A model generated the notes under the pieces. The model made no database searches and had not been told where the DNA came from. It worked only from the letters and a program-made list of their open reading frames with translations. From positions 1 through 36,719 of the forward strand of contig CANJMO010000021.1 in assembly GCA_947475845.1 (NCBI GenBank): DNA of 36,719 nt, written 5' to 3'. Made by a program: the position numbers and the translations under genes. The DNA comes from Caulobacteraceae bacterium (GTDB lineage: Bacteria > Pseudomonadota > Alphaproteobacteria > Caulobacterales > Caulobacteraceae). Positions 2,672-4,810 of this stretch are shown in pieces (the stretch's first letter is position 1; every line of letters starts with the position of its first letter).

Positions 2672-3394
2672 ATGTCCTGGTTCGAGAGCGTTTCCTTCAA
2701 GACCCCTCTGTCCGATACGGGCAAGCCGCTCGACGCCGCCACCATGGTGCAACTGGGCGCGATGTCTCCGCTATGGATGATGTTCCTCGGCGCATCGACC
2801 GCCGGCATCGCCTACTGGAGCATGACCCGCTGGATGGCCCTGGCCACTCCGGAGCGGATCAAGGAAAACGTGGTCAAGCTGCGGCTGGTCAAGCCTGAGC
2901 CCGCGCCCGCCCCGGTGATCGAGCCGATCGCCCTGGCGCCGATTCCTGAACCCGAAATCGTCCTGCCCGAGCCGGTCGTGGCCGAAGTCGCTTCGGTTGC
3001 AGTCGTGATGCCGGAGCCGGTGGCCGAGGTCGCCGCCGCTGTTGCTCCTGAAATCGTCAAGATCGCGCCTGCGCCCAAGCCCAAGGCGTTGGCCAAGCCC
3101 GCCCTCGCGATCAAGGCCGCCGTGAAAGCCGCGCCCAAGCCCGCGCCGGTGATCAAGGCGGCCCCGGCCAAGCCTGTCGCCAAGAAAGCCGTCGCCAAGA
3201 AGCGCGTGGTGAAGGCCAAGGCCAAGCCTGAGGTGAAGGCGGCCCCCGTGACGGTGAAGCCCGTCGTGGTCACGGCGCCGATCGCGCCCAAGGCTATCGC
3301 GCCCAAGCTTGTCGCAGCCAAGGTTGTCGTCAAGAAGCCCGCCGCTAAGAAGCCGGCCGCGCGTAAGGCCGTGAAGGCCAAACCGAAGGCCTAA
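2672..3394 (+). CDS. Ala/Pro/Lys-rich single-pass membrane protein, unknown function
   Basis: 240 residues in three parts. Residues 1-25 are polar. One membrane-like segment follows at about 28-50 (PLWMMFLGASTAGIAYW). A long low-complexity tail (about 70-240) shifts from Pro/Glu/Val repeats to histone-H1-like Ala/Lys repeats (KKAVAKKRVVKAKAKP, KKPAAKKPAARK), giving a very basic C-terminus. Such tails can bind DNA or polyanions, as in PHA-granule protein PhaF or H1-like proteins. There is a TTGCACTGCACAA element upstream at 2618-2630. I do not recognise the N-terminal domain, and a granule or nucleoid role is speculation. The gene is convergent with the next one, with 6 bases between stops. 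Confidence 0.75.
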   Translation: MSWFESVSFKTPLSDTGKPLDAATMVQLGAMSPLWMMFLGASTAGIAYWSMTRWMALATPERIKENVVKLRLVKPEPAPAPVIEPIALAPIPEPEIVLPEPVVAEVASVAVVMPEPVAEVAAAVAPEIVKIAPAPKPKALAKPALAIKAAVKAAPKPAPVIKAAPAKPVAKKAVAKKRVVKAKAKPEVKAAPVTVKPVVVTAPIAPKAIAPKLVAAKVVVKKPAAKKPAARKAVKAKPKA

Positions 3395-3400
3395 GACCGC

Positions 3401-3838
3401 CTAGCGGTCGTCTTCCGCATCGGTGATGTCGACGCCGGCCCATTCGGCGCCGTCTTCCTGCTCGTCGTCATCGTCTTCGCTGTCGGCTTCCAACAGGGCC
3501 TGCCAGACTGGATCGCTGTCCTCAACGAACTCCAGATCGTCGGCGAACACCACGGCGGTCTCACCGGTGGGCAGCAGCAGGCCAAGGAATTCGTGGACCT
3601 CGTCGTCTTCCTCGGTCTCGTGCACCTCGGCCTGAACGACCAGGGCGGCGAATTCCTCATCGTCCGAATACCAGATCACCGGCGCGGGCTTGGCCAGATC
3701 CATGGGCCGTCCGTTGAAGGTGTCGGCCAGGGCGAATACGGCGGACGCGCCCTCGACATCCGACGGCGTGGCGCAGTGGCCGCCGAAGGTGGGCGCCTTG
3801 CGCCAGTTGGACAGAGTGAAGCCAGGGCGAACAGTCAT
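3401..3838 (-). CDS. Conserved hypothetical acidic protein
   Basis: 145 residues from the ATG at 3838, which has a GGAGG ribosome site 5 bases upstream; an ATG four codons earlier (3850) has none. The N-terminal half (MTVRPGFTLSNWRKAPTF, then a segment ending PAPVIWYSDDEEFAAL) looks folded. The C-terminal third is highly acidic, with runs of Asp and Glu (SEDDDDEQEDGAEW). No catalytic motif or membrane segment is visible and I do not recognise the family. Transcription starts toward the putative small RNA region and ends against the basic-tailed gene at 2672. The opposite charge of the two convergent neighbours is noted without a functional claim. Confidence 0.7.
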   Translation of the reverse strand: MTVRPGFTLSNWRKAPTFGGHCATPSDVEGASAVFALADTFNGRPMDLAKPAPVIWYSDDEEFAALVVQAEVHETEEDDEVHEFLGLLLPTGETAVVFADDLEFVEDSDPVWQALLEADSEDDDDEQEDGAEWAGVDITDAEDDR

Positions 3839-3913
3839 GACGGCCTCCATCGCTCAAGCAGACGCCTGCGCGGCAGTGAGGTCAAGCTGCGTGGAGGCGA
3901 AGTTGGGGAAATG

Positions 3914-3955
3914 AAAAGGCCCGAACCTTCTCCCTCGACGGAGGCGGTCCGGGCC
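3914..3955 (-). terminator. Intrinsic terminator of the putative small RNA
   Basis: Stem GGCCCGGACC/GGTTCGGGCC (3946-3955 with 3918-3927 on the plus coordinates), followed on the minus strand by TTTT. No annotated minus-strand gene lies close enough upstream to need it. Confidence 0.75.
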
Positions 3956-3992
3956 CGGCGCCGACCGCATCGCGATGAATTCCGGTTGGCGA
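3914..3992 (-). ncRNA. Putative general-stress small RNA (GsrN-like candidate)
   Basis: No protein-coding frame explains this strand, yet it has a complete transcription unit. A sigma-T/EcfG-type promoter lies at 3999-4023, the predicted start is near 3992, and a strong intrinsic terminator sits at 3914-3955. The transcript would be about 80 nucleotides. The terminator hairpin is a 10-bp stem with one G-U pair. Its apical region carries CCUCC, which could pair with ribosome-binding sites, although it can also partly pair with GGAG in the same loop. In Caulobacter the sigma-T-dependent small RNA GsrN has this general design (short, C-rich loop). Identity with GsrN is inference, because I cannot align it here. 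The start site is estimated from the promoter. Confidence 0.5.
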
Positions 3993-3998
3993 ATGTCC

Positions 3999-4023
3999 AA
4001 CTGAGAAGGCGCGCGGTTGTTCC
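3999..4023 (-). promoter_or_regulatory. Sigma-T (EcfG-type) promoter of the putative small RNA
   Basis: On the minus strand GGAAC (4019-4023), a spacer of exactly 16 bases, then AGTT (3999-4002). The alphaproteobacterial general-stress consensus is GGAAC-N16/17-CGTT, so only the first, weaker base of the -10 differs. It points toward the terminator at 3914-3955. Confidence 0.6.
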
Positions 4024-4156
4024 CAGAGGCGCCAAGATGTTTTGCAGGGCGGGCGGGCTGTGATAGCGCCAGACATACGGTGCGCGCGGTCATAAGCGCG
4101 CCGGATTCGCCGCGCTTTTATCAGCCAGCGAATGAGAGGCTTCGGAGGTCTTGATC

Positions 4157-4810
4157 ATGGGTCTGCTCAAGTTGGAGGCTTTGGCCAAGACGCCGCTCCA
4201 GACCGACCCCTTCGACTATGTGGTCGCGACGGGCTTCCTGGACGCGGCGTCCAAGGACGAGGTGCTGGGCGGGTTCCCGGAAATGCCGGACCCGGGCTCG
4301 TTCCCGCTGTCGGAGGTGCAGATCGGTTCAGGTTTCCGGGCGCTGTTCGACGAGCTTGACGGCCCGGAATTTCGCGCCGTCATCGAGAAGAAATTCAAGG
4401 TCGAGCTGGCCGGAAAGCCGACCATGTTCACCGTGCGAGGGCGCTGCGATGCGCGCGACGGGCGTATCCACACGGACTCCAAGAAGAAGATCATCACCGT
4501 CCTGATCTACCTTAACGATGACTGGAACGAGGAGGGCGGGCGTCTGCGCCTGCTGCGTGACGGCGAGGACCTGAACTCCACGGTGGCCGAAGTGTCGCCG
4601 GCCTACGGGTCGTTGCTGGCGTTCCGCCGCTCGGATCGGTCATTCCATGGCCATGAGACCTATGTCGGCCCGCGCAAGGTGGTGCAGATGAACTGGGTGG
4701 TGTCCGATCAGGTCGCCGCCTGGGAGCAACTGCGCCACCGGATTTCCGCCGCCGCCAAACGCTTACGGGGCAGGCGGGGCGAAGGCAAACGGGGCGTGCG
4801 CGCGGCCTAG
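4157..4810 (+). CDS. 2-oxoglutarate/Fe(II)-dependent oxygenase family protein
   Basis: 217 residues from the ATG at 4157, with GGAGG at 4144-4148; a TTG at 4151 is too close to that site. The double-stranded beta-helix iron triad reads H105-x-D107 (IHTDS) and a distal histidine in SFHGHET (H164), with R173 (GPRKVV) for 2-oxoglutarate binding. The profile fits the prolyl-hydroxylase-like 2OG-Fe(II) oxygenase superfamily. The Arg-rich tail (AAKRLRGRRGEGKR) may contact membrane or nucleic acid. Substrate is unknown. Its position just before a glycosyltransferase/ligase fusion and near a second oxygenase (9027-9728) suggests a role in envelope carbohydrate modification, which is inference. Confidence 0.85.
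   Translation: MGLLKLEALAKTPLQTDPFDYVVATGFLDAASKDEVLGGFPEMPDPGSFPLSEVQIGSGFRALFDELDGPEFRAVIEKKFKVELAGKPTMFTVRGRCDARDGRIHTDSKKKIITVLIYLNDDWNEEGGRLRLLRDGEDLNSTVAEVSPAYGSLLAFRRSDRSFHGHETYVGPRKVVQMNWVVSDQVAAWEQLRHRISAAAKRLRGRRGEGKRGVRAA

Follow-up and report, generated by a model that had tools for sequence, protein, structure and literature searches.

A candidate small RNA with an EcfG-type promoter, distinct from GsrN, in one genus of Caulobacteraceae

In Caulobacter, the RNA GsrN (gsrN, CCNA_R0081) depends on sigma-T and exposes six tandem cytosines in a 5′ loop (PMC5869019). That paper describes gsrN homologues of Caulobacteraceae as typically lying near ecfG-nepR-phyR, with C. crescentus as an exception, and its section 14 gives predicted GsrN-like RNAs of Rhizobiales, likewise near ecfG-nepR-phyR and with an exposed C-rich loop. 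A full-text literature search found no second EcfG-type small RNA in Caulobacteraceae, although this does not prove that such an RNA is unreported. The DNA analyzed here (the window, 36,719 nucleotides) is contig C21 of a Caulobacteraceae genome, in which an earlier note had proposed a stress RNA on the minus strand. We compared this region with the other two genomes available for the genus, G001 and G002, and with more distant relatives. It appears rather probable that the minus strand from 3992 to 3914 encodes a stand-alone, non-coding, genus-specific trans-acting RNA of ~78 nt that is preceded by an EcfG-type promoter.

Locus, promoter and predicted fold

The elements discussed below, in the order of their coordinates in the window, are as follows.

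3401..3838, minus strand: downstream neighbour gene without a Pfam family (open reading frame listed as 3401-3850)
3857..3885, minus strand: promoter-like site of the downstream gene, TTGACC-N17-TCTGCT, with equal spacing in all three species
3914-4023, minus strand: predicted RNA region, between the divergent 2OG-Fe(II) oxygenase gene and the same-strand gene without a Pfam family
3914..3992, minus strand: predicted small RNA of ~78 nt, with a start placed near 3992 from the promoter and a model match at 3989-3913
3914..3956, minus strand: hairpin 2, with the fixed tip CTCC-GTCGA(A)G-GGAG and a short U tract, predicted from covariation and folds
3961..3989, minus strand: hairpin 1, with invariant TCATCGCGA in the loop region, aligned across three species (95.2% of the cells of the outer helix paired)
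3999..4002, minus strand: putative −10 element AGTT, read from the sequence 16 bases after GGAAC (compare AGTT after N17 in G002 and GGTT after N16 in G001)
4019..4023, minus strand: putative −35 element GGAAC of an EcfG-type ECF promoter, read from the sequence, kept in the two congeners and the same at 17 of 17 gsrN loci read
4040..4066, plus strand: divergent promoter-like block TTTTGC-N15-TGATAG, 5′ of the oxygenase gene, with equal spacing in all three species
4157..4810, plus strand: 2OG-Fe(II) oxygenase gene, the divergent neighbour (PF13640, E 1.6e-10; open reading frame listed from TTG 4151)

Reading of the minus strand confirmed the GGAAC-N16-AGTT that the earlier note had reported, with GGAAC at 4023-4019, a spacer of 16 and AGTT at 4002-3999. 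The block TTTTGC-N15-TGATAG stands back to back with this site on the plus strand. Both GGAAC and GTT recur in each of the three congeners; they precede the invariant TCATCGCGA by 16-20 bases, and the distance from GGAAC to the −10 element is 16-17. Across the three genomes, the promoter columns were identical at 8/8 positions versus 3/16 in the spacer (p = 0.0002); when the variable first base of the −10 element was counted as well, the promoter columns reached 8/9 (p = 0.001). Since the motif is conserved in the congeners while the spacer varies, the site appears to be more than a chance occurrence. By itself the motif is not rare, and four GGAAC-N16/17-NGTT sites were found on the two strands of the window. 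Genome-wide counts say nothing either way for this genome, where no excess over the reversed pattern was seen for the RGTT form (36 sites vs 62), the CGTT form (32 vs 40) or the N17-only form (7 vs 11). CGTT-form sites numbered 43 in G002, compared to 25 for the reversed pattern.

The canonical C as first base of the −10 element was present at the window RNA in none of the three congeners, and the site of G001 is part of a GGAACC...GGTTCC inverted repeat that reads on both strands. The −10 elements at 17 gsrN loci (L125-L141, counted by hand; L142, a weak second match in G009, was left out) were CGTT (6), GGTT (6), AGTT (2), TGTT (2) and CATT (1), hence NGTT in 16/17. With AGTT and other NGTT forms among them, the AGTT of the window RNA falls within the range of gsrN promoters. 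Indeed, the gsrN promoter of this genome is GGAAC-N16-AGTT, the very form found at the window RNA. G001 carries GGAAC-N16-GGTT at both gsrN and the new RNA; G002 has GGTT (N16) at gsrN and AGTT (N17) at the new RNA. It is thus plausible to read GGAAC-N16-AGTT as an EcfG-type promoter.

Downstream of this site, a small and a long hairpin were predicted in all three species. The stem with TTTT of the earlier note was also found on reading: hairpin 2 is rich in G+C, and its arms, GGGCCCGGACC and GGTTCGGGCC(T), form ~11 outer pairs and an inner CUCC/GGAG helix, followed by TTTT (3917-3914). The outer stem varies with covariation, while the tip CUCC-GUCGA(A)G-GGAG is constant. The final covariation count was made on three sequences, leaving out the palindromic other strand of G001 (the fourth row of the alignment). 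It gave 97.3% of cells paired and three pairs changed on both sides; no such pair was seen in six slid controls, whereas 14/500 shuffles reached the covariation score and 34/500 the number of both-side-changed pairs. Folding was only slightly to moderately better than that of shuffles for the window copy (z −2.3 in one run, −1.7 in another), and the congeners gave −3.4 and −7.1. Folds of the minus strand had lower z values than those of the plus strand in all three species (−1.72, −3.43 and −7.09 vs −1.10, −1.59 and −6.08). Furthermore, the minus-strand fold has G-U pairs in 6 of its 73 paired cells; read on the plus strand, these would become C-A mismatches. Identity between species was 71-82% for the RNA and 77-82% for the adjacent coding sequence. 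MAFFT places one gap wrongly in this genome's RNA in several alignments, whereas the model-based alignment does not. The U tract consists of four U in this genome and three in the congeners, and a terminator scan requiring 5 T in 8 listed no terminator. Hairpin 2 is probably a weak intrinsic terminator.

The earlier note had seen a CCUCC in the hairpin loop and had suggested that it could pair with ribosome sites. Neither part was borne out by the predicted folds: the CUCC of hairpin 2 is paired, with a mean unpaired probability of 0.00 in all three species, and blocking of ribosome sites by this element is thus unlikely. G001 carries one further CUCC, unpaired, near the 5′ end of the RNA. Among the conserved bases, AUCGC of hairpin 1 and GUCGA of hairpin 2 are predicted to be exposed.

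Neighbouring genes and open reading frames

The gene at 3401 is kept 3′ of the RNA in G001 and G002. Its start is more likely at ATG 3838 than at 3850, judging from a start MT[VA]RPGF that is readable in all three species. The oxygenase gene is kept in G001; the contig of G002 ends before reaching it. Synteny was sampled at 30 of 61 places with homologues of gene 3401, up to ~1.5 kb on each side: rlmJ was found nearby in 3/30 loci, all of them from the genus, and the oxygenase in 2/30 (this genome and G001).

This arrangement would also be compatible with a 5′ leader whose terminator (attenuator) controls the downstream gene 3401-3838. The RNA lies on the same strand as the gene, hairpin 2 ends ~75 bases before ATG 3838, and the gene follows the RNA in 3/3 species. 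Moreover, the gene's promoter-like site is a weak one, its −10 element TCTGCT matching TATAAT at 3/6 positions, and a consensus scan for sigma-70 promoters over 3300-4700 listed no site, not even that at 3857..3885. However, each of the three species has TTGACC-N17-TNTGCT in the interval that separates the hairpin from the gene, and the RNA thus probably forms an independent unit. In addition, a competing pairing recognized by eye in the window copy, GCGGUC/GACCGC, has no counterpart at the same place in the congeners. We consider control of the gene by such a leader to be quite unlikely.

The hairpins could alternatively be a mere terminator-like or insulating structure between transcription units, next to a fortuitous promoter-like site and without any regulatory RNA. 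The frequency of GGAAC-type sites by chance, as judged from the four in the window, speaks for this explanation. Yet, in contrast to the covarying outer stem, neither the tip of hairpin 2 nor the UCAUCGCGA stretch varies in sequence, and a fixed loop is not required by a plain terminator. Furthermore, there is no evident minus-strand gene to terminate, since the upstream oxygenase gene lies on the other strand. We regard a structure without an RNA product as improbable.

The earlier note had also described about 80 bases without a protein frame. Taken literally this does not hold, because open reading frames obtained by mechanical listing cross the region, with lengths of 64-79 aa for the minus strand and 156 aa for a single plus-strand frame. 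None of them looks conserved, however, since single-base length differences between the species shift the reading frames. A small protein, encoded for instance from an ATG inside hairpin 1, would draw on these frames and on the fact that no stop codon interrupts any of the three minus frames within the short RNA. The ATG of hairpin 1 is absent from G001, though, and together with the frame shifts this makes a coding function very improbable.

Distribution and comparison with gsrN

A DNA search of 60 related genomes returned 11 with matches at E 0.01, the own genome included. The only strong matches besides that genome were in G001 and G002, all others having E values of 0.0016 or worse. The earlier note had asked for conserved structure in relatives, and a two-hairpin RNA was indeed found in both congeners: a covariance model (R1) built from these two alone, with the window copy excluded, recovered the window copy at 3989-3913 with 71.8 bits (rough E 1.4e-13 over 42 kb). 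Over 390 genomes of the family, R1 scored the three genus members at 72, 94 and 103 bits and the best other genome at 36.3 bits. Matches at E 0.1 occurred in 22 genomes, and those outside the genus had at most 36.3 bits; weak distant copies could be missed by this search, which used stricter filters and scored 12 candidates per genome. Four conserved cores were sought on both strands of 22 weaker loci (L084-L105) and were absent from 21 of them. The sole exception, L103, turned out to be G001's own locus on the other strand. An exact pattern scan of genome_contigs returned two records, both of them the congeners (Caulobacteraceae MAGs); the own genome was possibly outside the scan. Rfam 15 revealed nothing in the region at gathering score, and the best entry at E 10 was ctRNA_p42d with 13.4 bits against a gathering score of 50.

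The closest described candidate was gsrN. A promoter-plus-CCCCCC pattern matched in 7/10 genomes. Three alike gsrN copies from three genera (G006, G008 and G010) were aligned, two of which lie on the contig of their genome's best NepR match, and a GsrN covariance model (R2) was built from them. R2 finds gsrN in 17/40 relatives, including all three genus members. The copy of this genome (G000:C49:5730-5808) is clear, has a C-rich loop and lies beside a stress-locus remnant on contig C49, while the window is contig C21. Identity of the gsrN of this genome to the others is 81-83%; that between G001 and G002 is 92%. At 3914-4023, R2 gave no match up to E 10 with default filters, and the six-C loop, sought by reading 3914-3992, was absent.

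The earlier note had left the choice between a GsrN homologue and another stress RNA. The promoter motif is of the same type, the RNA falls into a similar size class and a hairpin stands at its end. Nevertheless, the separate gsrN on C49 with its C-rich loop, the lack of an R2 match and the missing six-C loop make it extremely unlikely that the window RNA is this species' GsrN homologue, and we consider this identity ruled out. With the genome's own gsrN elsewhere and R2 silent in the region, the window RNA represents a second, different RNA. The other option of the note, a further stress RNA, remains plausible in view of the conserved EcfG-type promoter and the two-hairpin fold.

Among the aligned gsrN copies, a 3′ stretch, TTCTCGATGATGC, was kept in 7/8 copies other than that of this genome (L139), where it is altered. 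Between the loop stretch AUCAUCG/UCAUCG of the new RNA and the 3′ part of GsrN, complementarity extends over 6-7 bases in G001 and G002 and over 4 within this genome; the match may be due to chance. Duplex energies of the whole-length RNA with GsrN were matched or beaten by mononucleotide shuffles in 2/200 (G001), 0/200 (G002) and 43/200 cases (this genome); because these energies ignore internal structure, we did not rely on them.

The stress locus on C49 and the place of the new RNA

The genome, with a listed completeness of 98.67% (79% for G001), showed no NepR at E 0.001, with NepR identified by Pfam, no PhyR at E 1e-10 and no EcfG orthologue, its four ECF matches having 27-30% identity. 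G002 has an ecfG-nepR-phyR locus. G001 gave no NepR or PhyR match but three EcfG-like ones; the best reached 63% over 76 residues at a contig end, the other two 47% and 42%. Comparison with G002 revealed that ~4 kb lack a counterpart on C49, comprising the end of cheR, a small ORF, a histidine kinase-like ORF, ecfG, nepR and nearly all of phyR. At ~6788-7300 of C49 (L119 2289-2801, minus strand), a 170-codon open frame leads from a CheR-like start to the last PhyR residues, ending in QALFFHPSSRRQAA. We assigned the names cheR, histidine kinase, EcfG, PhyR and DUF1328 by recognition of sequence or position rather than by family search. The fused frame is apparently the scar of a ~4 kb deletion that removed ecfG, nepR and most of phyR, which suggests why the EcfG regulators are missing. 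The cheR-phyR junction, near 6824-6838 of C49, may instead be a misassembly; the BLAST matches of the two C49 flanks, however, overlap by only 15 bases. A canonical GGAAC-N16-CGTT precedes a DUF1328-like gene of G002 and is absent there in this genome, while gsrN and the window RNA still carry GGAAC-N16-AGTT. Dependence on sigma-T, as implied by the earlier note, cannot hold in the genome as assembled, given the deletion scar and the missing NepR, PhyR and EcfG orthologues. In a related genome (G003, genus g2), NepR and gsrN gave no match and the ECF matches were all distant (best 29% identity); the general stress response may have been lost there as well.

Beyond the observed sequence, conservation, covariation, promoter-like sites and non-identity with gsrN, we infer transcription, start site, sigma factor and mode of action of the stand-alone RNA as follows. 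Transcription would start at the ECF promoter of EcfG type (GGAAC-N16-AGTT) and end at the short U tract. Two hairpins would form in the transcript: a small 5′ one, whose loop region bears the invariant UCAUCGCGA, and a long 3′ one, capped by the fixed tip CUCC-GUCGA(A)G-GGAG. The exposed loop bases AUCGC and GUCGA would most likely pair in trans with mRNAs. The RNA would thus join gsrN as a second one with this type of promoter, and it is seen in this genus only. Since the EcfG regulators are missing from the assembly, the RNA of this species would today be either orphaned or read by another sigma factor. The small number of sequences (three), the short U tract (3-4) and the short exposed loops count against this stand-alone RNA, as do the shuffles that reach the covariation counts, the non-canonical first −10 base, the inverted repeat of G001 and the missing EcfG.

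A more far-reaching idea is that gsrN and the new RNA outlived their sigma factor: ecfG-nepR-phyR would have been removed by one deletion, GGAAC-N16-AGTT would have been kept, and a remaining ECF sigma factor would read both RNAs, while in relatives the new RNA might pair with the exposed 3′ part of GsrN. We consider this combined scenario speculative and rather unlikely. If the stand-alone RNA is real, Caulobacteraceae would possess a second small RNA behind a gsrN-like promoter, and this genome would provide a natural test of the fate of stress small RNAs once the alphaproteobacterial general stress response has lost its core regulators.

GsrN (PMC5869019) resembles the window RNA in its GGAAC-type promoter with the same −10 range, its intergenic position and its nature as a small structured RNA with a terminal hairpin. 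The window RNA differs from it by the lack of a six-C loop and of a GsrN-model match, by its other locus, by its restriction to one genus and by the separate presence of gsrN. The predicted GsrN-like RNAs of Rhizobiales (section 14 of the same source) are likewise small intergenic RNAs behind an EcfG-type promoter, which is putative in the window RNA. They are located near ecfG-nepR-phyR and have an exposed C-rich loop, whereas the window RNA, compared with them by description, lies between the oxygenase gene and the gene without a Pfam family.
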